A DNA stretch of 29,399 bases, taken from the IMG/VR virus record IMGVR_UViG_3300032668_000108, positions 1 to 29,399 of that record. One strand, written 5' to 3'. The number at the start of each line of letters is the position of its first letter. Position 1 is the first letter of the stretch. The translations under genes were made by a program, and so were the position numbers. The stretch is from a virus. Positions 11,378 through 29,399 of this stretch are shown in pieces. The notes below the pieces were generated by a model. It made no database searches and was not told the origin of the DNA. It saw only the letters and a list, made by a program, of their open reading frames with translations.

Positions 11378-12466
11378 TTATGGGTTTGAATTTTCTTGTT
11401 CAATGCTTTTGAATTCGAACGTTGCAGTCAATCGAGCATCGGATGTTGATCCAGCCAATATTCCTGTTTTTGCCGTATCTTTCAAACGACCCGGTTTTCT
11501 TACCATTGCCCATGCTTTGTCATGTTGTAATCCATGAACAAATGCAGGTGAGCTTGTAACCAATGACACTCTAAATCCTTGTTTTTTGTATTTTTTGGCT
11601 ATCTCATTCAAAAATTGTTTGCCGAGTCCAATACCTTGATAATCAGGTTTGACCACTATTCGATGAATACGCTTCATGTTTTTGACGTGAGGATGCGGAA
11701 AATGCAAAACTGAACACCACGCCACAGGTCGATCATTGATTTCGCAAATGTATTTGTGCGCTGCCATATTGTGATCGTGGCTCAAATAATGAAACTCCAT
11801 GAATTGCTTCCATTCACGTTGCTCAGCTTTTCTGATGTTGCAGACAATTTCAGGACGCCGAAGATCCCTCCAGACAAATTCTGCTTTGTCGCAGTTGTAA
11901 ACCCAATCAGGTTCCAACCATTTTTCAATGTCATAATGACAAGAAACAGCGATGAATTGTTTGTCTTGTTTCCTGATGAATTTTTGGATTGCTGACGATC
12001 CTACGCAAGCCACTTGGCGATCCACAACAGAAGTAAACTCATCATAAATGCAGGGTTTTTCGCTTGTTAGGATCAATTTGGCGAGTTCTGCTCGCATCTT
12101 TTGACCGTTTGATAAGACTTGAAATGGTTTTAGCCAATCAGGAGGCGAAGCGAACCCGACTTTGCACAGCGTTTCCGTAATGTCTTTAGCTGAATGATCG
12201 CCAAAATCATCAATAATGGATTGCCCCGTCCATTCATAGCCTTCAAAAAAAAGGAAATCTTTAAACAGGCGTCGAGCAATTGTTGTTTTACCGCTTCCTG
12301 ATGCTCCGACAATTAGACCTACATTCCATTTCTTGTCTTCAATCGGAATTTTAACGTCGAATTCTTTTCTGACTACATCGGCATCAAAATCGAACGCTGA
12401 TTTGACTTTGTTTGCTTTGAATGAATTTGATGTGGGACTTTCAATTACAAACTTTGAACTCGGCAT
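11378..12466 (-). CDS. ABC-type ATPase fused to GNAT acyltransferase (COG2401-like)
   Basis: 362 residues. Residues 45-195 are a soluble ABC ATPase with Walker A GASGSGKTT (54-62), signature LSNGQ (118-122), Walker B CIYDEF (139-144, catalytic Glu143), D-loop SVVDR and switch His177. Residues about 205-350 are a GNAT fold with acyl-CoA loop VVKPDYQGIGLG (271-282). No membrane segment, so it is not a transporter. This domain pair is the COG2401 arrangement; phage Mu Mom, which modifies adenine in DNA, is also GNAT-like. It overlaps the ParB-like gene by 22 nt and has GAGGG before the ATG. A role in phage DNA modification is inferred; an accessory packaging role is also possible. Confidence 0.85.
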   Translation of the reverse strand: MPSSKFVIESPTSNSFKANKVKSAFDFDADVVRKEFDVKIPIEDKKWNVGLIVGASGSGKTTIARRLFKDFLFFEGYEWTGQSIIDDFGDHSAKDITETLCKVGFASPPDWLKPFQVLSNGQKMRAELAKLILTSEKPCIYDEFTSVVDRQVACVGSSAIQKFIRKQDKQFIAVSCHYDIEKWLEPDWVYNCDKAEFVWRDLRRPEIVCNIRKAEQREWKQFMEFHYLSHDHNMAAHKYICEINDRPVAWCSVLHFPHPHVKNMKRIHRIVVKPDYQGIGLGKQFLNEIAKKYKKQGFRVSLVTSSPAFVHGLQHDKAWAMVRKPGRLKDTAKTGILAGSTSDARLTATFEFKSIEQENSNP

Positions 12467-12990
12467 TTATATCCCTCGATGTCCAAACGATTAAAAATTT
12501 TTTCTTGTTCTTCTTCGTCTTTGCATTCAACAATTACGTTAAAAACTTCAGAATACAATTCTTCTTTTAATTCTTTTTCTTCTTCTTGAATTTCATCAAA
12601 TAAATTAGCTAATTCAATTAAATCAAAGCCTATGATTTCCAAATTAAAATCATAATTGGCAAGTTCTTTAAGTTCAATTTTTAAAAGCGATTCATCCCAT
12701 CCAGCATTCATGGCCAATTTGTTGTCTGCTAAAACAAGTGCCCGTTTTTGAGCTTCAGATAGATGAGCAAGCTGGATGCTCGGGATTTCTTGTATTCCAA
12801 GTTTGCGCGCAGCCATAACGCGCCCGTGTCCCGCTATGAGACCATTTTCCCCATCAATCAAGACAGGATTGGTCCAGCCAAATTCTCGGATGCTGGCAGC
12901 GATTTGCGCGATTTGCTCGTCAGAATGAGTTCGTGAATTTCGAGCATAAGGGATAAGGCTTTCTAAGGGCCTATATTCGATGGTAATCAT
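12445..12990 (-). CDS. ParB/Srx-like nuclease-fold protein
   Basis: 181 residues. Residues 1-85 are a ParB-like domain: YRPLESLIPYARNSRTHSDE, IREFGWTNPVLID, then GLIAGHGRVMAARKLG with the GHGR signature, and the following ALVLADNKLAMNAGWDESLL segment. That second segment is the one normally leading into a DNA adenine methyltransferase in phage ParB-methyltransferase proteins. Here the methyltransferase is missing; a short acidic helical tail follows and the next gene encodes an ABC/GNAT protein overlapping by 22 nt. The start has AAGGAAAA upstream. Plasmid-style partitioning is unlikely without a ParA. A targeting or regulatory role in DNA modification is inferred. Confidence 0.85.
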   Translation of the reverse strand: MITIEYRPLESLIPYARNSRTHSDEQIAQIAASIREFGWTNPVLIDGENGLIAGHGRVMAARKLGIQEIPSIQLAHLSEAQKRALVLADNKLAMNAGWDESLLKIELKELANYDFNLEIIGFDLIELANLFDEIQEEEKELKEELYSEVFNVIVECKDEEEQEKIFNRLDIEGYKCRVQSL

Positions 12991-15045: not shown

Positions 15046-15294
15046 CTAGATTTGTTCTTTTGGTAGTTTTTCAGGATGGTATTGATAAGACCAAATTGTT
15101 TTTCTGGCCCTCTCATGCGTTCTTTCGGTCAATTCCCTGCTGACATATCTGTTTCTGTACAAATGGCAAAGGGCCATTGAAATGGCAGAGTTTGAGAGAT
15201 TAGTTCTATCTCGTATCATCGGCAGGGTTAGTGGTGTTTCTGCGCTTAGGAAGGTCTCTCGGACCCTAACAAGCGCATTCTTTGAGTTATTCAT
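15046..15294 (-). CDS. Small winged-helix DNA-binding protein
   Basis: 82 residues from the ATG coupled to the upstream stop as TAATG; a longer frame starting 48 nt earlier lacks a better ribosome site. Residues 20-55 (TLPMIRDRTNLSNSAISMAL then YRNRYVSRE) have the helix-turn-helix and wing pattern of MarR- or replication-type winged helices. It lies between the helicase loader and dut, so it may regulate the operon or assist replication initiation. No closer family recognised. Confidence 0.72.
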   Translation of the reverse strand: MNNSKNALVRVRETFLSAETPLTLPMIRDRTNLSNSAISMALCHLYRNRYVSRELTERTHERARKTIWSYQYHPEKLPKEQI

Positions 15295-15710
15295 TAGTTG
15301 CTCTTCATAACTTGTTGGCGATTCTTTAACTTTTGACTCCATTCTCGCAGCTTATCCAGAGCCTCTTCCTTGTCTCTTTGAGCCTTGGCTATCTGCTCAG
15401 GGGTCTTTGGTTGATGTTCAATCCTTGGGGCTGGCTTAGGAGGTATCGCTGGCCCATCGTTGCAAAGCTCCTTGAATGCCAAAACCGAAGGAGGGAATTT
15501 AGGGTCCATGTGCTTCAGGGCATAATCGAGCTTGGGCCTGTAGGTCAGGAAGACCCCTAGCATTTCCTCCCAAGTCTGCCTCACCAACATCACGTCTACT
15601 CCTTCCCAATGGCGCATGAATGCAGCGCCGTAAATCGCTCCCATTCTTCCGAAGACATAATCCATCCCTTCGGATGATTCGCAAAAATCACTTTCCAAGT
15701 AATCCAACAT
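15294..15710 (-). CDS. Lambda P-like helicase loader
   Basis: 138 residues. DYVFGRMGAIYGAAFMRHWE, then VDVMLVRQTWEEMLGVFLTY, followed by PPSVLAFKELCND and PAIPPKPAP: this is the order seen in short replication proteins of the lambda P type (W near the start, a helix with W-x-x-x-L, a PP-x-x-x-x-F-x-x-LC motif, then a proline linker). The C-terminal 40 residues are a charged helix. Such proteins recruit the host DnaB helicase to the origin complex built by the initiator encoded immediately upstream (22 nt overlap). The call rests on motif pattern and position. Confidence 0.75.
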   Translation of the reverse strand: MLDYLESDFCESSEGMDYVFGRMGAIYGAAFMRHWEGVDVMLVRQTWEEMLGVFLTYRPKLDYALKHMDPKFPPSVLAFKELCNDGPAIPPKPAPRIEHQPKTPEQIAKAQRDKEEALDKLREWSQKLKNRQQVMKSN

Positions 15711-16428: not shown

Positions 16429-16622
16429 CATTCCTCCGAGTCTGAAAAGTCTTGGAGTTTGAATAAATTTGCTGAAATAAACGCTGCCAGATGGTGGGCT
16501 TGTGTTTTTGTCAAAACAACACAGTCTTCTCCATCGCGCTGCATGATACGCAAAGATCCGTCTATATCAGCGACTATTTCAGTCTCATAAGCGGATATTA
16601 AAAGTCTGGTTTTTTGTGTCAT
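16428..16622 (-). CDS. Small unknown protein, first gene of the replication operon
   Basis: 64 residues: a beta-rich start (RLLISAYETEIVADIDGSLR) followed by a helix with LTKTQAHHLAAFISANLF. Proteins of this look, with the K-x-QA-x-x-LA-x-FI helix, are common early phage proteins of unknown role. AAGGA lies 5 nt before the ATG. It is the promoter-proximal gene of the leftward operon, directly next to the divergent control region. Confidence 0.75.
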   Translation of the reverse strand: MTQKTRLLISAYETEIVADIDGSLRIMQRDGEDCVVLTKTQAHHLAAFISANLFKLQDFSDSEE

Positions 16623-16854
16623 GGTCCTTCCCTCAAAAGGTTAAGCCTCATTGAAAAAGGTAGGCAGAACGATGAGGAACCGTCTTTTCGGGAGCTACCC
16701 TAGCCTAGCTTCATTGTACTTCATACGAGCCCAAGCCCCGTATTATTTAATCATACATCAAAACGAAAAGGTAATACATTTATTTTGACGTGTCTTTGGT
16801 TTGTTTTGTGATACATTCAATAGGATTAAACCATTAAATTTTGTTGAGGGCTAT
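16623..16854. promoter_or_regulatory. Divergent intergenic control region
   Basis: This 232-bp AT-rich stretch separates the leftward replication operon from the rightward genes. It holds two TCATAC hexamers (16721-16726, 16751-16756) like those near the early promoters, a plausible rightward promoter at 16785-16814 and an inverted repeat CCTCAT/ATGAGG (16646-16677) in the leftward leader. No gene of usable length was found. It is the expected site for early regulation. Confidence 0.6.
16785..16814 (+). promoter_or_regulatory. Candidate sigma70 promoter for the endonuclease gene
   Basis: TTGACG, 18-bp spacer, TGATAC. The -35 box matches five of six consensus positions; the -10 is weaker. Transcription would begin about 30 nt before the AGGG-preceded ATG at 16855. 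Confidence 0.45.
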
Positions 16855-17730
16855 ATGAGGTCATCGTGGACAGAAGCTGAAATAGTTGAATTTATTGAGC
16901 TTTACCCAGAAAAAGGCAAAGCATGGTGCATGAAACACTTTTCAAAATCAGAAGGTCAAGTTAGAGACAAGGCATCTCGATTAGGGCTCAGAATCAATCA
17001 AAATTCCGAGTTCATGAAACGGTCCAAAAAACTTATGGGAGAAAAATTAAAAGGAAGGAAACGGCCACAACATTCTGAAGTCATGAAAAACCGTTATTCT
17101 GAAAATTGCCCTATGACTCAATGGGTAAAAAACAATGGACAAGAAATTTCCAGAAAAGCAAAAGAAAGAATACAAGATAAAGGCCATCCCAGAGGTGCGC
17201 TCGGCCTTAAGCATTCAGAAGAAACCAAAGAAATCTTGTCTCAAAAGTCTAAATTGATGTGGAAAAACATGGATGAAAAAGCAAAAGACGAATTGATTTC
17301 AAAGCGATTGAGAACTTGGGCAAAAAATGGGAATCAGGTTGTGCATAGAAAAGCTTCATGGAAAGGAGCATGGAGAGATATTGGCGGGAAAAACCATTTC
17401 TTCAGGTCGGCATGGGAAGCAAATTATGGTCGCTATCTTCAATGGCTAAAATCACACAACAAGATAAAAGACTGGGACCATGAGCCCAAAACTTTTTGGT
17501 TCGAAGGAATAAAAAGAGGTTGCGTAAGTTATTTGCCAGATTTTTTGGTGCAAGAGATTGACGGGTCAGAGTCTTACCATGAAGTCAAAGGGTGGATGGA
17601 TGACAGAAGCAAAACAAAAATCGCCCGAATGGCTCGATATTTTCCAAAAATCAAGCTTATTGTAATTGACAAAAAGTCTTACCGATCCTTAGAAAAAACC
17701 ATGAAATCTTTCATTTGTGATTGGGAATGA
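16855..17730 (+). CDS. Putative homing endonuclease: HTH, NUMOD3-like repeats, PD-(D/E)XK nuclease
   Basis: 291 residues from the ATG with GAGGG upstream; the open frame extends further 5' but runs into the promoter. Residues 3-45 (SSWTEAEIVEFIELYPEKGK and later QVRDKASRLGLR) form a Myb/SANT-like DNA-binding unit. Residues 62-80 and 110-136 (GALGLKHSEETKEILSQKSK) are NUMOD3-like DNA-binding repeats, typical of mobile endonucleases. Residues 183-275 form a PD-(D/E)XK nuclease: RSAWEANY (E188), YLPDF (D229), EVKG (E243, K245). It is monocistronic, beside the divergent control region, and is probably a free-standing mobile nuclease. Target unknown. A DNA repair role is less likely given the NUMOD3-like parts. 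Confidence 0.8.
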   Translation: MRSSWTEAEIVEFIELYPEKGKAWCMKHFSKSEGQVRDKASRLGLRINQNSEFMKRSKKLMGEKLKGRKRPQHSEVMKNRYSENCPMTQWVKNNGQEISRKAKERIQDKGHPRGALGLKHSEETKEILSQKSKLMWKNMDEKAKDELISKRLRTWAKNGNQVVHRKASWKGAWRDIGGKNHFFRSAWEANYGRYLQWLKSHNKIKDWDHEPKTFWFEGIKRGCVSYLPDFLVQEIDGSESYHEVKGWMDDRSKTKIARMARYFPKIKLIVIDKKSYRSLEKTMKSFICDWE

Positions 17731-17738
17731 AATAATTG

Positions 17739-17767
17739 TTGCATGGTCATACTTCTTCTGTCATACT
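17739..17767 (+). promoter_or_regulatory. Early promoter P1 with TCATAC half sites
   Basis: TTGCAT, 17-bp spacer, CATACT, followed by TCAATCGT. The spacer contains GTCATACTTC, repeated directly after four bases as part of the -10 region, so two operator-like half sites overlap the promoter. The same arrangement recurs at 21094-21122. It would drive the operon from 17810 to the terminator at 21055. Confidence 0.6.
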
Positions 17768-17789
17768 TCAATCGTACCTTAAATCTTGA

Positions 17790-17803
17790 AACCACGAAAG
17801 GAG
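17790..17803 (+). repeat. Leader repeat AACCACGAAAGGAG, copy 1
   Basis: Exact 14-base element ending in the Shine-Dalgarno AAAGGAG, six bases before the ATG at 17810. It is the first of at least five copies ahead of early genes. Confidence 0.85.
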
Positions 17804-20523: not shown

Positions 20524-21006
20524 ATGGTCAATTTCAAAATATGCAAGAAGTGCAAGGAAAGTGAGCCACTGCATGAGTTTTACAGGCATCCAAATATGGC
20601 CGATGGTCATCTTAATGTCTGCAAACAATGCAAGCGTGAAGACTCTATTCAACATCGACTGAAAAACATAGAGCGAATTAGAGCTTACGACCGGGAGCGT
20701 GGAAAACTCCCGGAACGTATAGCGTTTAACGTCATGAGTAACAGGCTATGGCGTAAAGCCGACTGTAGACGCGCAGCAGCGCACAATGCAGTTAGCAGAG
20801 CACTAAAGAACGGTACGCTCGAAAAGCAGCCCTGTGAGCGTTGTGGCTATGAGAAATCACTAGCCCATCATGAGGATTATGACTATCCGTTACTGGTCAT
20901 GTGGCTTTGTCAAATTTGCCATAAGCAAAGACACAAGGAAATTGATGAGGAAAGATTGGCAGAACTATCTTTGTCTGTAGTAAAGTTGCCCTCGATCTCC
21001 TCATGA
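20524..21006 (+). CDS. HNH-like zinc-binding nuclease, possibly mobile
   Basis: 160 residues. An N-terminal zinc knuckle pair (C7, C10, C33, C36: CKKCKESEPLHEFY and CKQCKRED) is typical of phage HNH proteins that recognise DNA. Residues 87-137 carry NAVSRALKNGTLEKQPCERC, then AHHEDYDYPLLVMWLCQICH and a final H, an HNH-like site with C104/C107/C129/C132 zinc ligands and His115-His116-Asp118. The gene sits after ssb with a 46 nt gap and ahead of a terminator, so it looks like an insertion into the operon end. It has a good ribosome site (CGGAGG). Mobility is inferred. Confidence 0.75.
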   Translation: MVNFKICKKCKESEPLHEFYRHPNMADGHLNVCKQCKREDSIQHRLKNIERIRAYDRERGKLPERIAFNVMSNRLWRKADCRRAAAHNAVSRALKNGTLEKQPCERCGYEKSLAHHEDYDYPLLVMWLCQICHKQRHKEIDEERLAELSLSVVKLPSISS

Positions 21007-21054: not shown

Positions 21055-21083
21055 GGCGAATCTTCACGGTTCGCCTTTTTTTT
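21055..21083 (+). terminator. Rho-independent terminator after the erf-ssb-HNH operon
   Basis: Stem GGCGAA/TTCGCC with a 9-nt loop and an eight-T tail. It ends the operon that starts at promoter P1; a second promoter follows within 15 bases. Confidence 0.85.
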
Positions 21084-21093
21084 GTCTTCCCTA

Positions 21094-21122
21094 TTGCGTA
21101 ATGTATGACAATATGTCATACT
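21094..21122 (+). promoter_or_regulatory. Early promoter P2
   Basis: TTGCGT, 17-bp spacer, CATACT, followed by TCAATCGT. It matches P1 at 17739 in both boxes, in spacing and in the bases after the -10, so both are probably controlled together. It would drive the small genes from 21165 to 22711. Confidence 0.6.
21103..21121. promoter_or_regulatory. Perfect palindrome GTATGACA-ATA-TGTCATAC (operator candidate)
   Basis: Two 8-base arms with a 3-base spacer overlap the spacer and -10 box of P2, the position of a repressor site. TCATAC half sites also occur around P1 and in the divergent region. The binding protein is not identified; the small HTH protein encoded at 21912 is one possibility. Confidence 0.6.
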
Positions 21123-21142
21123 TCAATCGTCTTCTTATTTTC

Positions 21143-21156
21143 AACCACGAAAGGAA
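21143..21156 (+). repeat. Leader repeat AACCACGAAAGGAA, copy 5
   Basis: Thirteen of 14 bases match copies 1-3. It precedes the ATG at 21165 and follows promoter P2, the same promoter-leader order as at P1. Confidence 0.8.
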
Positions 21157-21164
21157 ACCGACAA

Positions 21165-21362
21165 ATGAAAGCACCAATAGTAATGATTGCAGCAATACGC
21201 ACAATTCCAAAACAAAAACGTTTTAAAGCAGCATTATTGGCTGAAAAAACTTTCTATTGCCATTTGGCTAAAAACAAATTAGATGGCAACTTCACAAAAG
21301 AAGATTGCATTTTAATGGCTGCCGAGGCAGCAGCAGCAGAAATCTATTATCAATTTGCATAA
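21165..21362 (+). CDS. Small early phage protein, unknown
   Basis: 65 residues starting MKAPIVMIAAIRTIPKQKRF from the ATG after leader repeat copy 5. A helical, mildly hydrophobic start is followed by a basic segment, then CHLAKNKLDGNFTKEDCILM and AAEAAAAEIYYQFA. No known motif. First gene of the P2 operon, which carries a series of very small proteins. Confidence 0.65.
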   Translation: MKAPIVMIAAIRTIPKQKRFKAALLAEKTFYCHLAKNKLDGNFTKEDCILMAAEAAAAEIYYQFA

Positions 21363-21385
21363 ATAAAACTGCGCCAAGGATGGTG

Positions 21386-21399
21386 CATCACGAAAGGAA
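21386..21399 (+). repeat. Degenerate leader repeat, copy 6
   Basis: CATCACGAAAGGAA keeps CACGAAAGGA of the leader and ends five bases before the ATG at 21405. It is likely a diverged member of the same element. Confidence 0.6.
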
Positions 21400-21404
21400 A
21401 GAAA

Positions 21405-21560
21405 ATGAAAAATAAATACAACCCTAACAAAATGTACCAAGGAAACTTCATTGAGCCAAAGAAAGCCCCGCTGTGGGTTGAATACGCCAGCCTCATAACA
21501 CTAGGGGTGGTTATGGGCGGTTTGTTTGCTTACGGGCTTGTCACGGCTACTGGGGGCTAA
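21405..21560 (+). CDS. Small single-span membrane protein
   Basis: 51 residues. A polar N-terminus (MKNKYNPNKMYQGNFIEPKK) leads to one hydrophobic helix YASLITLGVVMGGLFAYGLV near the C-terminus, suggesting an inner-membrane protein with the N-terminus in the cytoplasm. It is preceded by a degenerate leader repeat. Its stop overlaps the start region of the next gene (TAATGTG). Too short for any family assignment. Confidence 0.6.
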   Translation: MKNKYNPNKMYQGNFIEPKKAPLWVEYASLITLGVVMGGLFAYGLVTATGG

Positions 21561-21561
21561 T

Positions 21562-21804
21562 GTGAATAAAGAACGCGAGTTGTTGATACAAGCAATTGAT
21601 GCTTATGACATTGCGTCAAGCCCCTGCTCTGACAGGCTGCATCACGCCTTTGAAGAAATTCGTAATTACCTTATTTGCGAACCAGAATCCGATGAGCCTG
21701 TGGCGTGGGTTGATGTTAAAGAGACCGATCAAGGGCCTTATGAGTTTCACGGAATAAAGTTATTGCCAGTTGGCAAGCACAACCTCTACACCAGACCCGC
21801 GTAA
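21562..21804 (+). CDS. Small phage protein with PVAWVD/LYTRPA motif
   Basis: 80 residues from a GTG start four bases after the upstream stop region, with GGGGG just upstream; no ATG is available in frame except far upstream in the previous gene. The helix ERELLIQAIDAYDIASSPCS is followed by EIRNYLICEP, then EPVAWVDVKE and an end KHNLYTRPA. Phage proteins with 'EPVAW' and 'LYTRP' ends are common accessory proteins of unknown role. Start choice is the main uncertainty. Confidence 0.65.
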   Translation: MNKERELLIQAIDAYDIASSPCSDRLHHAFEEIRNYLICEPESDEPVAWVDVKETDQGPYEFHGIKLLPVGKHNLYTRPA

Positions 21805-21816
21805 GAAAGGAAGCCG

Positions 21817-21915
21817 ATGACGGGCTGGAGAGGTGAGTGGGGGAACTTACATAACAATTTTGAAGAAGGAATCCGCTACACAGAACGACACCACGGGATT
21901 GGAGGAAAAGAATGA
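21817..21915 (+). CDS. Possible 32-residue protein
   Basis: A short frame MTGWRGEWGNLHNNFEEGIR continuing to GGKE, with AAAGGAAG before its ATG and a stop that overlaps the next ATG (ATGA). The coupling and ribosome site favour a real gene, the size argues for caution. The many aromatic and Gly residues suggest no known domain. Confidence 0.4.
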   Translation: MTGWRGEWGNLHNNFEEGIRYTERHHGIGGKE

Positions 21916-22157
21916 ATTATCCAGATGAAATTAACTGGAGCTTGATTGTTGGAAACCTTCGCCGGAGCGGATTGACTCACGCGACAGTAGCAATGGAAAC
22001 TGGATTTTCAGTTGGAGAACTTCGACAAATGGAATCTGAAGTTTATTATCCGCCTTACATCAGCATCATGAAGCTTCTGGATTTGCATCATGAAATGTGT
22101 CCGGGGCATCATGAATTGATTGCTAACCATAGCATTGAAGAAAAGGAGACATCATGA
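21912..22157 (+). CDS. Small helix-turn-helix protein
   Basis: 81 residues. DEINWSLIVGNLRRSGLTHA, then TVAMETGFSVGELRQMESEV, reads as a lambda repressor-like HTH core (LRRSGLT-x-x-x-VA-x-x-x-GFS-x-x-x-LR), followed by YPPYISIMKLLDLHHEMCPG, which resembles the remaining helices. It may bind DNA as a small Cro-like regulator, conceivably at the TCATAC palindrome near P2; no evidence links them beyond proximity. GGAGG precedes the ATG, and the last bases overlap the next gene by 4 nt. Confidence 0.72.
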   Translation: MNYPDEINWSLIVGNLRRSGLTHATVAMETGFSVGELRQMESEVYYPPYISIMKLLDLHHEMCPGHHELIANHSIEEKETS

Positions 22158-22339
22158 CAAACAATGACCAAAATTTAATTCAACAAATGATTCGAGCCGG
22201 GAAAATGGACGCAATAAGAGATTTGCTTCCTGAATACCATCAAGCTCGAGCTGAAAGAATGATTGAAGAAATGGGGGAGAAGTATATCCTCCATCATAAA
22301 AACCACGTCAAAAGGCTTAAAACACCTTTAGCGCACTAA
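22154..22339 (+). CDS. Small helical phage protein, unknown
   Basis: 61 residues starting MTNNDQNLIQQMIRAGKMDA, with AGGAG six bases before the ATG and an ATGA overlap with the HTH gene. The whole protein looks helical with a basic C-terminus (YILHHKNHVKRLKTPLAH). Nothing identifies a family. Confidence 0.6.
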   Translation: MTNNDQNLIQQMIRAGKMDAIRDLLPEYHQARAERMIEEMGEKYILHHKNHVKRLKTPLAH

Positions 22340-22351
22340 GAGGAAACAACA

Positions 22352-22591
22352 ATGAACGATTATAAAATAAAAAAAGTAAACAAAAACGGGCTTAAATTTA
22401 TTAGAGAAATTCTCGATCAATATCACGTTAACCCGCAAAGAGCTTGCGAAAAAGAATATGCAAAAGACGTTGAATTTGCGTTAACTGAATTATGTGACCC
22501 AATTCTTGAAATAAAAGCATTACATTCGGTAAGCGGTTGCACTTGCTCATGGGTTTTGTCAGAAAACGATATCACGACTTATTATGAATGA
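22352..22591 (+). CDS. Small early phage protein, unknown
   Basis: 79 residues: MNDYKIKKVNKNGLKFIREI, later DVEFALTELCDPILEIKAL and SVSGCTCSWVLSENDITTYY. Lys-rich first half and a Cys-x-Cys near the end. AGAGGAA precedes the ATG. AT-rich coding sequence compared with neighbours. Function unknown. Confidence 0.6.
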   Translation: MNDYKIKKVNKNGLKFIREILDQYHVNPQRACEKEYAKDVEFALTELCDPILEIKALHSVSGCTCSWVLSENDITTYYE

Positions 22592-22600
22592 GCTGCATGA

Positions 22601-22711
22601 ATGAAAAAAAACCCACAAGGTAGGCCTAAGAAAGCCTTAAAAGACCAGGTTATTGTTTGTTCGGCAGAAGCAGATTTGTTAGATGATTGCATAGGATTGC
22701 TGATTGTTTAA
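22601..22711 (+). CDS. Possible 36-residue protein at the operon end
   Basis: A short frame MKKNPQGRPKKALKDQVIVC followed by SAEADLLDDCIGLLIV. The RPKK segment resembles an AT-hook-like basic motif. The ribosome site is weak (GAGCTG) and its stop overlaps the end of the convergent zinc-finger gene by 4 bases. Treat as tentative. Confidence 0.35.
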   Translation: MKKNPQGRPKKALKDQVIVCSAEADLLDDCIGLLIV

Positions 22712-22899
22712 CGTTTAGGCTTTCCGATGATCTTCCTCATTTCCTGTTCAAATTCGTGATCTTCTTTGCACCAATCATCACAAAAAGATCCGTGATCGAG
22801 TTTGGCGTTACAAGAAAGGCAGTACCCGCTGGTCGGATGCTGCCTTTTTTGTTTTGAGTGCTTTGGACGTAAATCGTCCGAGCTGTCAGAGAATTTCAT
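22708..22899 (-). CDS. Small zinc-finger-like protein
   Basis: 63 residues. GYCLSCNAKLDHGSFCDDWC then KEDHEFEQEMRKIIGKPKR: two cysteine pairs (C-x2-C, C-x3-C) followed by acidic-basic helix, the pattern of small zinc-ribbon proteins common beside phage lysis genes. The start overlaps the lysozyme stop (ATGA). It is the last gene of the leftward lysis operon and meets the rightward early operon tail to tail with a 4-base overlap. Function unknown. Confidence 0.72.
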   Translation of the reverse strand: MKFSDSSDDLRPKHSKQKRQHPTSGYCLSCNAKLDHGSFCDDWCKEDHEFEQEMRKIIGKPKR

Positions 22900-23345
22900 T
22901 TCATGCCAGAAAGGAACTCATCCCTTTCCGCTATTCTGCGTCTCAGCAATCCAGCCATGTGCTTTCCGTGAGACATATCCCAATCATCGAACTGTTCGGC
23001 AGCGCCTTTGTAATTTCCAGCGTTCAAAAGTCGAAGCAATGTTGAGTTCTGAAAGTTGGTTCTGCCAACGTTGAATACAAAGTCCACCAGCGCGTCGAAT
23101 TCCTGCTGTGACAGTCTGACCCTAACCAAAGCATTAACAGCGTTCACGGCCTTCTGAACGTCCCTCATGAGCAAGTCTTCGGCTTGCGTCTGTGTAATCT
23201 TCATTCCGGGATTGACTTCTGGCCCAGTGTGGCCGTATCCGATAGTCCAAGGAGTCCCGCCAGAGCCCGGATCTGGATACGCTTCGAGCTTGCAGCCCTC
23301 GAATTGCTCCGTCAAATGGAGCCCGTCTTTGGAATACTGCATCAT
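22896..23345 (-). CDS. Endolysin, GH24 lysozyme
   Basis: 149 residues, normal for T4/P22-type lysozymes. The catalytic region reads EGCKLEAYPDPGSGGTPWT then IGYGHTG, giving Glu16, Asp25 and Thr34; the substrate-binding FVFNVG and the end LLRRRIAERDEFLSG are also typical. It cleaves the MurNAc-GlcNAc bond of peptidoglycan at the end of infection. No signal or SAR anchor is present, so export depends on a holin. An alternative ATG three bases later (23342) couples to the Rz stop as TGATG. Positioned with Rz/Rz1 and a holin candidate. Confidence 0.95.
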   Translation of the reverse strand: MMQYSKDGLHLTEQFEGCKLEAYPDPGSGGTPWTIGYGHTGPEVNPGMKITQTQAEDLLMRDVQKAVNAVNALVRVRLSQQEFDALVDFVFNVGRTNFQNSTLLRLLNAGNYKGAAEQFDDWDMSHGKHMAGLLRRRIAERDEFLSGMK

Positions 23346-23776
23346 TTGAGCGCGTTATATTTCTGGATCACTTCGTTCCGTTCGATTTCTGTTGCGGAGC
23401 AATCACGGGCAAAGTTGATAAGAGATTCGACATCCTGCTCAAGTAAGCGGAGTCCTTGGGCTGGTACTGGAGCGGGGGAGGAGCTGGGCAAGGTTGCTCG
23501 ACCAGAACCGGGTTGCTTGAGCATCCCGCGATATTGAGCAATAAGAGAATCATACTGAGCTTGTAAGTCATCTTTTTCCTTTTGTTTGTTCTGCGAAATC
23601 TGGGCTTGCTGGTAGACAACCATATTCTCATGGTCAAGAGCATCCTTCTGAGCCTGTGCAGATTTCTGCTGCTCCTGAGCAATCAGCTTTTGATACTTGG
23701 CCGTATCTACTTCATGAGTGACCATCGCGGAGAATCCGCACAAAACCAGAAGGACGCAAATCTGCAGGTAAATCAT
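23342..23776 (-). CDS. Rz: i-spanin (Rz-like)
   Basis: 144 residues. One N-terminal membrane helix (MIYLQICVLLVLCGFSAMVT) followed by a long periplasmic coiled coil (LIAQEQQKSAQAQKDALDHE and onward), the architecture of inner-membrane spanin subunits. A Rz1-type lipoprotein is encoded within it in another frame, which confirms the assignment. Together the pair fuses inner and outer membranes after the endolysin has acted. The start overlaps the upstream membrane-protein stop by 4 bases. Confidence 0.9.
   Translation of the reverse strand: MIYLQICVLLVLCGFSAMVTHEVDTAKYQKLIAQEQQKSAQAQKDALDHENMVVYQQAQISQNKQKEKDDLQAQYDSLIAQYRGMLKQPGSGRATLPSSSPAPVPAQGLRLLEQDVESLINFARDCSATEIERNEVIQKYNALK
23368..23571 (-). 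CDS. Rz1: o-spanin (Rz1-like lipoprotein) nested in Rz
   Basis: 67 residues read in another frame, wholly inside the Rz gene. MTYKLSMILLLLNIAGCSSN is a lipoprotein signal with Cys17, and the mature part is Pro-rich (CPAPPPLQYQP) as usual for o-spanins. The ATG, preceded by AGGA six bases upstream, is preferred over upstream starts that give a basic non-signal extension. It anchors in the outer membrane and pairs with Rz. Confidence 0.88.
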   Translation of the reverse strand: MTYKLSMILLLLNIAGCSSNPVLVEQPCPAPPPLQYQPKDSAYLSRMSNLLSTLPVIAPQQKSNGTK

Positions 23777-24009
23777 GACTGCTCTTTCTGGGTTGCAGCT
23801 TTCCCGCCAATGAGAACGCCACCACCACCTAACAGGGCCCCAAAACCTATTCCGAAATCAGAAAAGTTAACAGGTAAACCTTTGAATATATGGAGAAAGC
23901 CTACAGCGCAAAAAGTGATTGAGGCCATCAATGTGCAGGATCTAGCAAGGCAGAATGTCTTGTTGTCATCTTCGGTAAGAATGTCTAAGAAAAACTGCTT
24001 TATGTTCAT
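23773..24009 (-). CDS. Holin candidate, two membrane segments
   Basis: 78 residues. A cytoplasmic-looking charged start (MNIKQFFLDILTEDDNKTFC) is followed by two hydrophobic stretches: LMASITFCAVGFLHIF and IGFGALLGGGGVLIGGKA, and a charged end ATQKEQS. This matches class II-type holins and sits directly upstream of Rz and lysozyme. The Gly-rich second segment is typical of proteins of this class. It would time lysis by opening the inner membrane. Family not proved. Confidence 0.65.
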   Translation of the reverse strand: MNIKQFFLDILTEDDNKTFCLARSCTLMASITFCAVGFLHIFKGLPVNFSDFGIGFGALLGGGGVLIGGKAATQKEQS

Positions 24010-24200
24010 TCTGGTTTGGCTTTCTTTTTTGGTGCAGCTTTCTTTGCTGCTGGAGGCTTGGGCTCGGCCTTGGGTTTTGGCTTGGCCTTTTTGGGCTTTT
24101 TGTCTGGATGATGTTCTGGATGACGATCAAAATATGAGCCTATAACGGGCTCAACATCGAAAGGTTTGGGCTTGAAAAGAGCTAAAAGCTTCTTAATCAT
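24006..24200 (-). CDS. Lys/Pro/Ala-rich small basic protein
   Basis: 64 residues. After MIKKLLALFKPKPFDVEPVI the C-terminal 35 residues are a histone H1-like tract of Lys, Pro and Ala (KKPKKAKPKPKAEPKP). Very basic, no predicted fold in the second half. The first residues could be an amphipathic membrane helix. Start and stop overlap both neighbours by 4 bases. Its role in the lysis-tail interval is unknown; DNA or membrane binding are both possible. Confidence 0.65.
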   Translation of the reverse strand: MIKKLLALFKPKPFDVEPVIGSYFDRHPEHHPDKKPKKAKPKPKAEPKPPAAKKAAPKKKAKPE

Positions 24201-24463
24201 GGTTTGTCCGCTTTGCCGTCTAGACGGTCGAATATCAAATCAAGAGTCCTTTCCATCCTTGATAATCGAGCGTCTAAATCAGTTTTTCTGACATATTCCG
24301 TTGGGAGGAGAATCTCTAAATTCTTCATATCTCTAGCCAGTTCTGTTTGAGCGTCAGCTATTCCCTTTTGACTTGTGGATATGCTTTTTGTCCACCATCC
24401 GATTACACCACTAACGAACATATAAAACAGAGTGACGGATGCGATAATGGCCTCCCAACTCAT
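24197..24463 (-). CDS. Membrane-anchored coiled-coil protein in the lysis region
   Basis: 88 residues. One N-terminal membrane segment (AIIASVTLFYMFVSGVIGWW) is followed by a coiled coil (GIADAQTELARDMKNLEILL) and EYVRKTDLDARLSRMERTLD, ending in DRLDGKADK. Small proteins with this N-TM plus coiled-coil layout (XhlA-like) occur in phage lysis modules; this one may be an antiholin or holin accessory. The call is from architecture and position. Confidence 0.62.
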   Translation of the reverse strand: MSWEAIIASVTLFYMFVSGVIGWWTKSISTSQKGIADAQTELARDMKNLEILLPTEYVRKTDLDARLSRMERTLDLIFDRLDGKADKP

Positions 24464-24472
24464 GTTTACTCC

Positions 24473-24763
24473 TTATGCTGCAGGGTCAGACGTATCCCCG
24501 ACTGGTTCTGCAGGAGCTTCAGAAATTGGCTCGGATACAGGAGCGGGGGCTTTCGCAGCAGCTTCATCGGCTGCTTTCTGGGCAGTTTCAGCAGCAGCTT
24601 TTGCAGCATCGGCAACAGCAATTGCTGCCTCCGCTTCCTTCTTAACGTCTTCGGCTACAGCAGCAGCAAGCTTGGCTTCTTCTGCTTCTACGAAATCCAG
24701 AATAGAGCGCAGCTCTTGACGAGCTTCAGTGGTTAATTCCAAAACGAGTTGCTTCAGTGACAT
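24473..24763 (-). CDS. Ala/Glu-rich coiled-coil protein
   Basis: 96 residues. MSLKQLVLELTTEARQELRS starts a helix; residues 28-75 are Ala-rich with charged heptad positions (EEAKLAAAVAEDVKKEAEAA, then AVADAAKAAAETAQKAADEA). The tail is Pro/Glu-rich and probably disordered. A helical rod that could oligomerise. AGAGGAT precedes the ATG. Found between fibre-assembly and lysis genes; function unknown. Confidence 0.62.
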   Translation of the reverse strand: MSLKQLVLELTTEARQELRSILDFVEAEEAKLAAAVAEDVKKEAEAAIAVADAAKAAAETAQKAADEAAAKAPAPVSEPISEAPAEPVGDTSDPAA

Positions 24764-24765
24764 AT

Positions 24766-24972
24766 TTAATCCTCTTTTGCTTCTTCATCGTGTGTTTCTA
24801 CAGCCTCAGAAGCATGTGCTTCTTCTTGGGCAGCTTGAGCTTGCATTTGCTGCATGACTTGCATCCGGATTCCGTATACCAGCATTTCAGACTTTTCCAT
24901 TGGAAGCTTACGCAAGCCTTCAAGAATGATATCTACTTCTACGGTTGATTCGACTGTGATTGTAAGTGCCAT
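24766..24972 (-). CDS. Small acidic protein, unknown
   Basis: 68 residues: a beta start MALTITVESTVEVDIILEGL, a helix KLPMEKSEMLVYGIRMQVMQ and a Gln/Ala then Glu/Asp-rich tail (HDEEAKED). AAGGAAAAAA lies before the ATG. It is adjacent to the preceding coiled-coil gene (2-base gap). No family recognised; perhaps a chaperone or tail accessory. Confidence 0.62.
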   Translation of the reverse strand: MALTITVESTVEVDIILEGLRKLPMEKSEMLVYGIRMQVMQQMQAQAAQEEAHASEAVETHDEEAKED

Positions 24973-24983
24973 TTTTTTCCTTT

Positions 24984-25637
24984 TTAAACGGTTGGCTTAG
25001 TAGGTGCTGCTGGAAGCATAGCCACAAACGCTTCTGCAGTGTCAGGCAAAGTGCCTTGCTCAATAGTGTACGCCTCAGCCCAAATACTGTCACGCCAAGC
25101 TATTAAAGAATCGGCATCAGCTTTGTATTGTGGATTTGATGAGGTCGCATAAGAGACTGCCGATAACAGAGAGTCATAGCCCCATGATTTCGCAATATTA
25201 TCAAGATTCACCTGAACTTCGCTATTGAACGATTGGATGATCTGGTCTTTTGTTGGGGCTGGGGCAATAGTTGATGCTCCAATAGGGAGCGGTCCCTTTG
25301 TTGCCATGATGTGTTGAGAACCATCAGGAAGCCAATAAATAATTCCCACATGATCTTCGGGGGCGGTTAATGACGAACCTTCTGGAAACGGACCTAAATC
25401 TATTTGAACATTTTGACTGAAATCAGGCAACCAATAGACGGTCCCACGATGATCTTCTTGAATGCTCCATGATCCACCAGAAAAAACCGCAACGCTTCCT
25501 TTAAGTACAACAGGAGGAGCTTCAATTGTTGCAAATGCAGGAAGCAAAATCACTCCCTCCTCAATCGGAGAATAACTTGCATCTTCTGAACTGAGATATT
25601 CGCCAGTAATGTTTGAATAGTTGTAAATGAGAGTCAT
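24984..25637 (-). CDS. Tail fibre assembly-like protein with WLPD repeats
   Basis: 217 residues. An N-terminal segment (LIYNYSNITGEYLSSEDASY) resembles the usual fibre-assembly or fibre-tip chaperone start ('Y..d..Tgey....A..dP'). Residues about 60-115 contain two near-copies of EDHxGxxYWLPDxSQ with a linking GPxPxG stretch, and a third motif LGPFPEG-like. The C-terminal 80 residues (WGYDSLLSAVSYATSSNPQY, ADADSLIAWRDSIWAEAYTI) match the helical domain often attached to such proteins (DUF4376-like). It follows the collar fibre gene, the standard place for a fibre chaperone. Confidence 0.78.
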   Translation of the reverse strand: MTLIYNYSNITGEYLSSEDASYSPIEEGVILLPAFATIEAPPVVLKGSVAVFSGGSWSIQEDHRGTVYWLPDFSQNVQIDLGPFPEGSSLTAPEDHVGIIYWLPDGSQHIMATKGPLPIGASTIAPAPTKDQIIQSFNSEVQVNLDNIAKSWGYDSLLSAVSYATSSNPQYKADADSLIAWRDSIWAEAYTIEQGTLPDTAEAFVAMLPAAPTKPTV

Positions 25638-25646
25638 AACCTTTTC

Positions 25647-26915
25647 CTAGTATTTGATGCAAGCCAGAAGAGCAACGTTTTTGGGTGTGGTTTCTGTCCC
25701 ACCCGTATTAGTAAGGGCAGCATATCCATTTTGAATCTGAACGCGATTTGAAGGGCTTTCTATGCTTGTCTGTGGAGCAACACACAATCCATTTCCACTT
25801 CCAGCAGAAGAACCCAAGATTATGTTATCCAAATGCCCGTGGCCCGTATCTGTGTGAGTATGGCTTCCAAAAGAGTCGGCTTGATACGATCCAAAAACGC
25901 GACTGGGATCTAGTCCCCGTCCATTGTCCCATCCCCGAACAAACACAGCCCTTAAATCAGGAATGTTGAATGTAGTAGATCCGTCACCTGCTCCAAATGT
26001 TGTGCCAATCGCTGAAAATAATCCGGAATAAGTTGTTCTTGAAATTGCTGCGCCATTACAAGCCAAATATCCGCTAGGAGCAGTTGTTGAAGCAAACCAA
26101 TCTACTAATCCCGGAGTGTTTGAAACATAATTGGCTGGATTAGCTGCATTGTAAGGCGTAAATCCAAGAGCAGAAATTACATCTGAGGAGGTCAGACTAA
26201 CGGTTCCGACTCGCCCATTAAAGCTGGCAACTTTTGCTGAATCGGCAAAACTGATATTTGCACCATCACCATAAATAAAAGTCGATTGCCCTTGAGTGAG
26301 GGTCACACCAGTGCCAGAAGCTGTCCGAGCCGTGAGAGTAAATGATCCAGTGGTGTTGTTCTGGACGATGTATTCGCCAACTGTAGCCGGAAAAATTAAA
26401 TTTCTGTTTGCAGTGAGGGCTCCAGAAATAATCAATACCGGATAAGCTGCTTGTAACGTAGTAAGAGTTACATCAGCAGTTGTAACGGTTACGGATTGAG
26501 ATCCTTCGAAGGCGAGAGAAATCCAGCCAGCACCACCCGTATCAGGATTGGATGTATTGTTATCTACTGAATTCAGCCAAAGCCCACTCAGCCCTGCAGC
26601 CAAAAGAACAGCACCATTGGGATATCCTCCAATGGTTGAGGAGAATGTTGCGTCATAAGTGAAAAGTCCACCCGCTTCCTGCCATTGCTGAATGGCAGTG
26701 ATTTCATAAAGAATGCCGTTGAAATCCGCGCCAAAAGGAGGGACACCGCCAGAGCTGATAGCCTGAAATGTAAGTGGAGGAAATCCATCAGTTAAAGAGG
26801 CTTTCCCGTTGGTTATCCCAATTTGAGAAGCCTGTGGAATCGTGTTTTTGTAACTAGATCCCGCCGAGTTTGCAAAAGGGATCTGAATCTTTGATGGGAT
26901 GTTTGTGCTTTGCAT
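25647..26915 (-). CDS. Tail fibre with C-terminal collar domain
   Basis: 422 residues. The N-terminal module (IPFANSAGSSYKNTIPQASQ, GKASLTDGFPPLTFQAISSG, FGADFNGILYEITAIQQWQE) is the anchoring region seen in many baseplate-linked fibres. A beta-rich middle follows. The end is a phage tail-collar domain: APSGYLACNGAAISRTTYSG, FGAGDGSTTFNIPDLRAVF, RGWDNGRG and His-rich DSFGSHTHTDTGHGHLDN. It probably makes a trimeric receptor-binding or short fibre. It is the second fibre gene of the window and lies directly after the DUF2612 gene. Confidence 0.92.
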   Translation of the reverse strand: MQSTNIPSKIQIPFANSAGSSYKNTIPQASQIGITNGKASLTDGFPPLTFQAISSGGVPPFGADFNGILYEITAIQQWQEAGGLFTYDATFSSTIGGYPNGAVLLAAGLSGLWLNSVDNNTSNPDTGGAGWISLAFEGSQSVTVTTADVTLTTLQAAYPVLIISGALTANRNLIFPATVGEYIVQNNTTGSFTLTARTASGTGVTLTQGQSTFIYGDGANISFADSAKVASFNGRVGTVSLTSSDVISALGFTPYNAANPANYVSNTPGLVDWFASTTAPSGYLACNGAAISRTTYSGLFSAIGTTFGAGDGSTTFNIPDLRAVFVRGWDNGRGLDPSRVFGSYQADSFGSHTHTDTGHGHLDNIILGSSAGSGNGLCVAPQTSIESPSNRVQIQNGYAALTNTGGTETTPKNVALLACIKY

Positions 26916-26926
26916 TTCTGATCCTG

Positions 26927-27526
26927 TTAATAAGTTACGTTGACAAGTACGCCAGCCGGACGGGGAAACACGCCCGAACTATTCACAATGGCAAGCTGCC
27001 AAGCATTCGGAATAAAGTTGAAATGATACGTCAGGCTCATATTTAAGCCATCTATCACATAAACGATTCCATAAGGGCTTCCAGATACCGAAGTGCCAAA
27101 AAAATACTGGAGAAAGCTGTTGATATTTGGAATCGACAAATTGCTGATATTGACCGCTGCTTTTACCATAATCAGACGGCGATAAACGTCATCTGATAGG
27201 TAGTAAGTCGTGGTGTTTGAAACAGAAGAATAGAATGGAGCTTGTCCAAAAGGCTGGGGACCAGTTGAGGCATAAGCTAAAAGATAAGCTTCATCAAAAC
27301 CCAAAAAGTTTGGTGAACCCGGAATTTGCAGATACCGCGAAACGTTAACAATCTGCCCCCAAATATCAAGACCACTTCCAACAGCCGTGTTTACGTCCCA
27401 AATGTTTGCATAAAACTGTGCAATGTCACTTGCTGGGTCTACAGCGTCATTGTATGACTTCAACAGCGAATAAATCGTTGGAGAATTGTAGTATTGGCTA
27501 AGAAGTGTCTCGTCCCAGTTTTGCAT
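26927..27526 (-). CDS. DUF2612 tail protein
   Basis: 199 residues. WDETLLSQYYNSPTIYSLLK, VNTAVGSGLDIWGQIVNVSR, and PNINSFLQYFFG with a final GVFPRPAGVLVNVTY are the DUF2612 hallmarks (YxNSPxIxxLxxxFN-type start, GxGLDxWGxIVxxxR, and a C-terminal RPAGV strand). Members occupy the position of P2 gpI next to baseplate J and are presumed baseplate or fibre-attachment proteins. The order J-DUF2612-fibre here is standard. Confidence 0.88.
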   Translation of the reverse strand: MQNWDETLLSQYYNSPTIYSLLKSYNDAVDPASDIAQFYANIWDVNTAVGSGLDIWGQIVNVSRYLQIPGSPNFLGFDEAYLLAYASTGPQPFGQAPFYSSVSNTTTYYLSDDVYRRLIMVKAAVNISNLSIPNINSFLQYFFGTSVSGSPYGIVYVIDGLNMSLTYHFNFIPNAWQLAIVNSSGVFPRPAGVLVNVTY

Positions 27527-27528
27527 AA

Positions 27529-28908
27529 TTACACCAGGGTCACTGTTACGTTTGAAGCAGAAAGAACTGGAAGCTGGTCAATGCCGAATGCAACCAAAAG
27601 CGCAAATTGCAGAGCTGTGCCATTGCCTGAGCTTGCGCCAGTAGTTGCAGCGGTGAATGTTGAGCCCACCGCATAAGTAACCCCGGAAGTTCCTGCTATC
27701 GTGTTCCACTGCGTTTGCGTAGTCGAGCCAAGCGTCAAAATTTGATAGAACTGACCAATAACAAAAGATCCAGCGGTTACTGAATTGTAGGCTGCAAGAT
27801 AGACTTCTTCGATATTTACATAAGGGCTTATCGCGTTGATGTTGGCGTAATAGCGCCCTGAATAAGTAGTCTGCCCAATGTAAGCAGCTTGCCCCCCGTC
27901 TTGGCCGTTAAATGAAGCAACAACCGCATTTTGGACTAGCTGAGTAATGTTTGATGGAAGCAAAGAATTGCTTTTAATGACTATATCAAAATAGCAATTC
28001 GTTGCAGTTGGGGTCAGATAAGTGACGGAATAGGCAATCGGGGTTGCGTAGGACGTATCATAAACCGTAACGGTTGTATTCCCGTTATATCCGCAACCCG
28101 GAGGCTTTTTGTTCCAGATTGCCTGTGCAATAGCAGAGGAGGAACCACCACCAACCGAAACAACCATTGAATGAGCAGCGATTGAATAGCTAGTGGATCC
28201 GTAGCTGATTGCAGTTCCTGAAGGATTATCGACCACTACGGCCTGAAGGACATTAGGAACCGCCAGCACTGAAGCAAGGATTGCTTGAATAGAATTGACT
28301 GCATTCACTGCAACGCTGTTTTGCCTTCTGGCTTCAAATGCTGCTCTACTTTCTACCGCATTTCCAAGCGTTCCAGCCGTTGAGTTGTATACCGTATCCC
28401 AGCCAGCAACAGCGGTATAAATTTTAATCAATGCTCCAACGTTGCAAGCAATCGCGCCAGTGGTTTGGTTCTGGAATGTTCCAACGATGTTCCCGCTGGC
28501 TGGAATGGTTACTGAAGCCGTGAGGCTGTAAAGGTATCCATTAGTATCCTGAGCGATAGATCCAGCAGGGATCACGGTTCCCACCGCTCCTGTGCAAGTT
28601 GCCTGAACAACGGTTCCTGCTGCCTGAATGCGAGTCATGAAATAAATGTAACCAATAGCATCCTGCCAAATGCCAGAGGCAAAGGCTGGATTTACCTGAT
28701 TGGCAATATAAGCAATTTCATTGTTTTTCTCGCCAATGATGGCCGTTTCAGATTGAGCAAGTTGGCCTTGTGGGGTTGTAAGCTGCGAGTTAACGCCACC
28801 ACCAAAGGCAACGTTAATGTCTGTTTGAACTCCTGTAAGGATGGCCTGTTCTGTAGGGAGAACAGGGGCTCCATTGACCCATGTAATAGCAGGAACGTTT
28901 GTGGTCAT
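27529..28908 (-). CDS. Baseplate J-like protein with an inserted domain
   Basis: 459 residues. The core resembles Mu gp47/P2 gpJ: an N-terminal helical region (ITWVNGAPVLPTEQAILTGV, TPQGQLAQSETAIIGEKNNE), AVESRAAFEARRQNSVAVNA, an AVVVDNPSG strand, IWNKKPPGCGYNG and a C-terminal QLPVLSASNVTVTLV. Residues about 380-432 form an unrelated Gly/Thr/Ser-rich unit beginning GSFVIGQFYQILTLGSTTQT, which looks inserted into the last part. The protein builds the baseplate wedge of contractile tails, placing this phage among myovirus-like types. Confidence 0.9.
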   Translation of the reverse strand: MTTNVPAITWVNGAPVLPTEQAILTGVQTDINVAFGGGVNSQLTTPQGQLAQSETAIIGEKNNEIAYIANQVNPAFASGIWQDAIGYIYFMTRIQAAGTVVQATCTGAVGTVIPAGSIAQDTNGYLYSLTASVTIPASGNIVGTFQNQTTGAIACNVGALIKIYTAVAGWDTVYNSTAGTLGNAVESRAAFEARRQNSVAVNAVNSIQAILASVLAVPNVLQAVVVDNPSGTAISYGSTSYSIAAHSMVVSVGGGSSSAIAQAIWNKKPPGCGYNGNTTVTVYDTSYATPIAYSVTYLTPTATNCYFDIVIKSNSLLPSNITQLVQNAVVASFNGQDGGQAAYIGQTTYSGRYYANINAISPYVNIEEVYLAAYNSVTAGSFVIGQFYQILTLGSTTQTQWNTIAGTSGVTYAVGSTFTAATTGASSGNGTALQFALLVAFGIDQLPVLSASNVTVTLV

Positions 28909-28911
28909 TTA

Positions 28912-29280
28912 TTAGCCTCCGAAAGCGACATTGTTAGCCACTCCATCCGTATCAATGAATTCAATTTGACCCGCCAATGATCGGTTCTGGAATTTTGTAA
29001 AGTTTACCTGCACTTCAGCAACATCAGGAACAAGCAAAGCTTCAGTTTGCATTTGCTGTGCAATGTAAGACAAGGGGGGGAATTCTCCAAGGATATCCTG
29101 CCAATAGGGAAGCCCCAAATTGGTGTTGTACCAGCATTCACCGAGAAAAGTTCGAGTAGCCGAGGCTACATCTTGAGCGATAGCATAGGGAGCGCCAGCA
29201 AGCGCAATGTTTCCATTAGCATCGAGAACCAAATCCCAAGCTGTTTGATCGAGTAAAAGCGTATTGTGAATGATCGTCAT
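28912..29280 (-). CDS. gp25/W-like baseplate protein
   Basis: 122 residues. AWDLVLDANGNIALAGAPYA, IAQDVASATRTFLGECWYN, then GLPYWQDILGEFPPLSYIAQ and VPDVAEVQVNFTKFQNRSL show the family order: an opening DxxGN strand, QDV helix, GE segment, GIPY-x-x-x-IL-x and an R-x-L-x-x-x-I end. Such proteins are early baseplate wedge components beside J in P2-like and other contractile-tailed phages. The start overlaps the upstream stop (ATGA). Confidence 0.82.
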   Translation of the reverse strand: MTIIHNTLLLDQTAWDLVLDANGNIALAGAPYAIAQDVASATRTFLGECWYNTNLGLPYWQDILGEFPPLSYIAQQMQTEALLVPDVAEVQVNFTKFQNRSLAGQIEFIDTDGVANNVAFGG

Positions 29281-29399
29281 ACTGGTTGCCCCGTATTGCT
29301 TCCACCAGATTGAACGCCAGAATGAACGTGAGTGTGGAGGCTCGTTCCCTGACCTTTAACATCACCCGTTGCCGTAAAGGATCCAGTATGGGACCAAGT
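29277..29399 (-). CDS. gpV-like baseplate spike protein, C-terminal end (partial)
   Basis: Only the last 40 residues are visible, ending in TGA that overlaps the next ATG. WSHTGSFTATGDVKGQGTSL, HTHVHSGVQSGGSNTGQPV is the characteristic end of gpV-type central spike proteins, with a TGDV strand repeat, HTH-x-H metal site and GGxNTGxP terminus. It forms the membrane-piercing spike under the baseplate hub. The remainder lies beyond the right edge. Confidence 0.85.
   Translation of the reverse strand, partial: TWSHTGSFTATGDVKGQGTSLHTHVHSGVQSGGSNTGQPV

Follow-up and report, generated by a model that had tools for sequence, protein, structure and literature searches.

Two extended -10 promoter-like sites in an uncultured phage, and gene exchange between relatives at the predicted transcription start of one of them

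Sigma-70 promoters of the extended -10 type, at which a match to the -35 consensus is not required, are known from proteobacterial phages, and operators of the Cro/CI type overlap an early promoter. Two further systems bear on the locus described here. The operator of NikR is GTATGA-N16-TCATAC (PMC7055735), and PMC10448857 describes nuclease genes at the boundaries of phage gene exchange, in so-called HEG islands.

The DNA analysed (hereafter the window) is the viral record IMGVR_UViG_3300032668_000108, linear and 29,399 bases long (window 1-29,399), from a phage that, by its IMG sample numbers and neighbouring matches, we take to be of freshwater origin. One side of the window encodes terminase, portal, baseplate and tail proteins, several of these structural names being our own reading of the open reading frames, and a rightward block encodes ERF and Gp157 (both by Pfam) and SSB. 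A second record, G005, holds almost the same phage, differently permuted: bases 1-1326 of G005 are identical to window 28074-29399, G005 from 13244 onward follows the window from position 1 onward at about 99.9%, and the 11.9 kb between these parts is new sequence. Window and G005 together indicate a whole genome of probably about 41.3 kb. The ten proteins scanned from the new part of G005 are structural or without a regulator match. DNA relatives in the phage collection are limited to matches at the level of SSB and ERF, at 60-80%; MW202544 has a similar gene order, ERF-exonuclease-SSB-nuclease. Eleven genome contigs carry portal relatives at 50-70%; most are proteobacterial (Ferrovum, Burkholderiaceae, Paraburkholderia, Rhizobium, Bartonella and others), but two, from MAGs, bear the labels Bacteroidetes and Chloroflexi.

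Elsewhere in the window, the large terminase gene (8624-10882, minus strand) carries an intein insert at about 9432-10225 (Pfam Intein_splicing, E = 1e-14), in which an endonuclease VII reading frame (9528-9989, E = 9e-21) is nested in another frame; the related record G004 is colinear across this place without the insert. The protein of 11378-12466 (minus strand) matches both ABC-type ATPases and GNAT acetyltransferases. Its gene adjoins a ParB_N-like gene (12445-12990), and the DNA at this place is about 67% identical to Pseudoalteromonas phage SL25 over 1.4 kb.

An earlier note on this DNA had claimed that TTGC[A/G]T, a 17-bp spacer and a common element occur at 17739 and 21094, with direct repeats at the first site. 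Both claims hold, and the parts of the two sites, hereafter sites 1 and 2, are these:

17739..17744, plus strand: -35-like box TTGCAT of site 1, read from the sequence
17746-17755 and 17760-17769, plus strand: direct copies of GTCATACTTC at site 1, 14 bp apart
17759..17775, plus strand: site 1 copy of the 17-mer TGTCATACTTCAATCGT, with CATACT hexamer at 17762-17767 and predicted +1 G at 17774
17792..17802, plus strand: CCACGAAAGGA, leader/ribosome-binding element preceding the gene at 17810
21055..21083, plus strand: intrinsic terminator upstream of site 2 (8-bp stem, 5-nt loop, T8)
21094..21099, plus strand: -35-like box TTGCGT of site 2, in the same register as at site 1 across a different 14-nt spacer
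21114..21130, plus strand: site 2 copy of TGTCATACTTCAATCGT, with TGT-CATACT, hexamer at 21117-21122 and predicted +1 G at 21129
21145..21155, plus strand: CCACGAAAGGA, leader/ribosome-binding element ahead of the opening gene of block 2, whose ATG is at 21165

At both sites the -35-like box is followed by 17 bp and then CATACTTCAATCGT. The 17-mer was found exactly twice in the window, each time 14 bases past TTGC[A/G]T, and no further copy with up to three mismatches occurs there (0.10 expected from shuffles); across the roughly 41-kb genome covered by the two records no third good copy stands out, the best others matching at 10/17 or fewer. The two 14-nt spacers agree at only two positions. 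An exact 17-mer with a -35-like box in register despite such unlike spacers points to two promoters, not to one long duplication.

The resemblance to sigma-70 extended -10 promoters of phages lies in the TGn upstream of the -10 hexamer, the A at position 2 and T at position 6 of CATACT, the 17-bp distance to the -35 box (16-18 bp being the range expected) and the ribosome-binding site and ATG behind. Where the two sites depart from them is in the match of their -35 boxes to TTGACA, which is 3/6 in each case and so below a 4/6 threshold, and in an identity that runs on for an unusual length, through TCAATCGT up to the start. It is because of these poor -35 boxes that a canonical sigma-70 scan lists neither site, its total of 11 predictions in any case showing no excess over shuffles (11.5). 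We read both sites as sigma-70-type extended -10 promoters with weak -35 boxes. The ribosome-binding site follows the scanned 34-mer after 25 nt at site 1 and 23 nt at site 2, with the ATG next, and the terminator (listed by the scan as 21055-21075 plus the T tract) ends the ERF-Gp157-SSB-HNH unit ahead of site 2. The earlier note's proposal of like promoters at the head of two rightward blocks of genes is supported by the 17-mer, the common register, the terminator and the ribosome-binding site with its ATG.

One further rightward promoter is possible:

16785..16824, plus strand: TTGACG ... TGTGATACATTCAATAGG, before the gene at 16855

Its TGTGATACATTCAATAGG (16808-16824) is the best match to the 17-mer in the divergent region and ties with the coding background. 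The leader element CCACGAAAGGA is common to several genes of the rightward blocks, being exact at 17792, 18062, 18383 and 21145 and present with one mismatch at 21388; all four exact copies fall in these blocks. The idea that it is more than a ribosome-binding element was set aside: a scan with the 15-mer TAACCACGAAAGGAG returned 117 stretches and was uninformative, since those listed in other contigs are nearly all single copy.

The 17-mer is held by five IMG/VR contigs, all of which share the flanks of site 1 or of site 2 and are relatives by whole-record comparison. Three haplotypes are available at site 2, namely those of the window, of G001/G004 and of G002/G003, G005 stopping before it. 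What differs between them lies in the following region:

21131..22649, plus strand: cassette of small genes, exchanged between relatives and situated behind site 2; gene order and first gene differ in kin

Any two of these haplotypes agree over at least 109 bases upstream of the 17-mer and over exactly the 17-mer itself, and diverge directly beyond its last base (predicted +2). The leaders are CTTCTTATTTTCA, ACCTTAAATCTTTAG and GCTTTGATTTTG; ACCACGAAAGGA and an ATG come next in every case, and the first genes behind them differ. G001/G004 use the site 1 leader at site 2, with 46 bases there matching site 1 at 95.7%. The gene at 22352, which stands near the end of the cassette in the window, is the first gene in G004/G001 and the second in G003/G002, the identity being 92-97%. 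G003 matches the window at 99.97% over 22650-29399, yet has another gene set behind site 2, so that the cassette is exchanged even between near-identical phages. Since identity ends at the last base of the 17-mer in three haplotypes, the promoter appears as a fixed port before an exchanged cassette: related phages swap genes exactly at the predicted transcription start. A literature search for mosaicism at boundary sequences gave no match.

Each copy of the 17-mer lies just downstream of a nuclease gene:

16855..17730, plus strand: endonuclease-like gene closely preceding site 1 (PHROG 190 / DUF1064); start chosen from GAGGG-ATG, the tool's reading frame starting at 16801
20524..21006, plus strand: HNH/endonuclease VII-like gene closely preceding the terminator and site 2 (PHROG 2340)

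This position raises an alternative, that the 17-mer serves chiefly as a target for recombination or for a nuclease and not primarily as a promoter, to which the identical break-point in three haplotypes and the described occurrence of nuclease genes at exchange boundaries (PMC10448857) also lend weight. Comparison with G004 speaks partly the same way. The blocks of endonuclease and site are nearly unchanged, with differences at 3/897 positions in the site 1 endonuclease gene (from a start at 16834), 6/483 in the HNH gene, 0/79 and 0/124 in the intergenic regions of sites 1 and 2, 0/252 in the gene after site 1 and 0/46 in the short region before the HNH gene. Elsewhere divergence reaches 29%: 49/418 in the DUF1376 gene, 55/191 over 16432-16622, 10/211 in the divergent region, 55/303 in the 18080 gene, 24/648 in ERF, 15/503 in Gp157 and 21/414 in SSB. 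However, two non-nuclease genes, at 18403 (5/264) and 18675 (1/213), are likewise among the least diverged in this one phage pair, which makes homing by itself a weaker reading. The promoter regions sit inside blocks of low divergence, so that their conservation alone is no proof of function. Among the kin examined, none showed an allele lacking either nuclease gene. The -35-like boxes, moreover, hold the same register at both sites, site 1 shows no break-point pattern (identity continues through the 17810 gene), and the same element precedes a ribosome-binding site and ATG in unrelated phages (see below). We consider a primarily recombinational role improbable. The locus resembles the HEG islands of PMC10448857 in having nuclease genes beside low-divergence blocks and exchanged neighbours; it differs in that the far boundary here is a predicted promoter start, and homing is only putative.

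The two views might be combined, in that nuclease gene, terminator and promoter could form a travelling expression port. Nuclease-driven exchange would re-install the promoter, different accessory early genes would dock at +1/+2, and the palindrome described below would silence the docked genes until a cassette-encoded regulator or its dilution released them. To us this is a speculative idea with a small chance of being right. The preferred reading remains that of two promoters, with the exchanged genes behind the second.

Recurrence in other phages was assessed with the pattern TTGNNT-N14-TGTNATACTTCAAT, which occurs in 24 IMG/VR contigs, five of them kin and 19 not. A ribosome-binding site and ATG follow closely in 9 of the 19, with no open frame longer than 108 nt across the element; these are eight contigs of one phage group and L299. 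The ten lacking them lie in open frames, seven of 429-6801 nt and three of 147-255 nt. In gene content, judged by eye, the eight-contig group is not clearly like this phage. Its three haplotypes keep TTGATT-N14-TGTTATACTTCAATCGT, in part because the search pattern required it, and differ in spacer and flanks; beyond what the pattern required, all three also agree in the free letters of TTGATT, in the variable N and in the CGT that comes after the pattern. When 255 non-kin loci were searched for the 17-mer with up to three mismatches, MW202544 held no copy and 29 matches with two or three mismatches were in other contexts. A near-palindrome in the unrelated group was considered as a shared operator and rejected, being altered in two of three haplotypes. 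The eight contigs (L301-L305, L307, L308 and L311) also have, after TTGATT-N14-TGTTATACTTCAATCGT, an inverted repeat GTGTTC...GAACAC in the leader before the ribosome-binding site and ATG.

At site 2 alone, the promoter is overlapped by the perfect palindrome that the earlier note had reported, with half-site centres 11 bp apart:

21103..21121, plus strand: perfect palindrome GTATGACA-ATA-TGTCATAC, resembling an operator and reaching from about -26 to -8 with respect to the predicted start

The pattern GTATGACA-N3-TGTCATAC occurs once in the window, and the same dyad was not found at other promoters, site 1 included. It plausibly suits a dimeric repressor, and its origin there by chance seems unlikely: given the right arm, the exact left arm beside either promoter has a probability of about 2e-4, a figure computed after the fact. 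A counter-reading grants that both promoters are real and holds the palindrome to be an accident of the site 2 spacer sequence, with no regulatory role. The window should indeed hold several palindromes of such size by chance (for arms of 8 bp and loops of at most 10, 7 were found against 1-9 in eight Markov simulations, no excess), site 1 has none, the unrelated phage group does not keep it, and no significant regulator match was obtained. On the other hand, it is the only one of the seven in intergenic DNA, and GTATGACA-N3-TGTCATAC is present in 41 IMG/VR contigs (four of them kin), many in a few clades, compared with 0 for a control palindrome of equal composition, a single sequence and thus few for comparison. 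We regard an accidental palindrome as rather unlikely, and keep to a candidate operator at site 2. The palindrome is identical in all four kin records reaching that position; because the whole 124-bp intergenic region is unchanged among kin, constraint and recent common origin look the same here. The 37 non-kin contigs are not independent cases, since many belong to one low-GC phage group. Fourteen non-kin representatives of them, chosen by eye, show mixed contexts (4/14 have no reading frame of at least 50 aa across the palindrome), so that no regulator can be read from them.

The low-GC group (about 0.27-0.31) carries AAA-GTATGACA-N3-TGTCATAC-TTT, the operator-like palindrome being kept and the middle three bases varying:

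L041-L042, L047, L049-L052, L054, L057, L060, L062-L064, L066-L067, L069-L071, L073, L075, L076: low-GC palindrome group

The earlier note had further proposed that one regulator, acting on TCATAC sites, controls both operons and possibly the divergent region. Of this, the two like promoters and the operator-like palindrome at one of them stand, and the sharing of a regulator is unsupported in that form. In its favour, the half-site TGTCATAC is found at both promoters, with an extra copy as a direct repeat at site 1, and the two further TCATAC hexamers said to lie in the divergent region are there, at 16721 and 16751, and survive in G004. That pair is 30 bp apart in direct order, with no inverted pair. 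Yet what the two promoters have in common as a half-site is simply the extended -10, and site 1 has no inverted partner; its repeats lie 14 bp apart (about 1.3 helical turns), whereas at site 2 the centres of the half-sites are 11 bp apart. No further good copy stands out in the genome covered by the two records. Nor is TCATAC enriched in the window overall (13 against 9.9 +/- 3.3), though it is skewed to intergenic DNA (about 878 bases by our own gene list). The expectation that it would not be equally frequent in coding DNA is borne out by 6/13 intergenic occurrences, yet four of these six are the twin sites themselves; outside them the fraction is 2/9, a weak skew (p about 0.03 by our own arithmetic). 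The hexamer was accordingly dropped as a regulon marker, and a common regulator of the three regions seems very improbable. The half-sites GTATGA and TCATAC are those of the NikR operator (PMC7055735), at a spacing of 7 here, not 16. No NikR was found among the phage proteins scanned, and a literature search with the half-sites produced only unrelated work among the matches listed.

A candidate for a regulator acting at site 2 lies within the block itself:

21912..22157, plus strand: small protein, possibly XRE-like helix-turn-helix, candidate Cro-like regulator

Its gene stays in the site 2 block in all three haplotypes despite the rearrangement of the cassette. The product has sub-threshold matches to Pfam HTH_31 (E = 0.036) and to a PHROG regulator family (E = 0.033), and AlphaFold gives a four-helix, HTH-like model of moderate confidence (pLDDT 75; four other models were poor, at 49-54). 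The best Foldseek matches, all with E above 0.06, are mostly controller proteins of restriction-modification systems and XRE-type repressors. Relatives occur in viral contigs at six loci, all at 94-96% identity and four of them in known kin; none was found in the phage collection and none is significant among solved structures. A second weak candidate is the winged-helix-like product of 15046-15342. The likeness to Cro/CI operators is a dyad over spacer and -10, with half-site centres about one helical turn apart, and an HTH-like gene in the block. Unlike them, the operator here is single, the sister promoter has none, and no CI or integrase was recognised in the parts of the phage scanned.

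We propose the following. Host housekeeping RNA polymerase would read 17739 and 21094 as two phage promoters, presumably early ones, each with a weak -35 box TTGC[A/G]T, a 17-bp spacer, the extended -10 TGT-CATACT and the conserved TCAATCGT up to the start. Site 1 would drive the recombination/replication block from 17810 to SSB; the terminator at 21055-21083 would reset transcription, and site 2 would then drive the small accessory genes that relatives exchange at its start. The palindrome at 21103-21121 would make only site 2 repressible, a dimeric regulator bound there covering spacer and -10 and blocking the polymerase. The candidate repressor is the HTH-like 21912 product, which would act in a Cro-like manner on its own operon. 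Taken as a whole (two host-polymerase promoters, the second repressible through its palindrome, and the 21912 product as candidate), this is the account that we, on balance, favour.

Much of this layout is fairly ordinary for phage promoters, the informative part being the break-point at the predicted start. For an uncultured phage the analysis yields two precise promoter predictions and one operator candidate. The promoter element, as TTGNNT-N14-TGTYATACTTCAATCGT, is found again in a freshwater phage group unrelated to this one, and the cassette behind site 2 clearly exemplifies gene exchange between phages with its break-point at a predicted transcription start.
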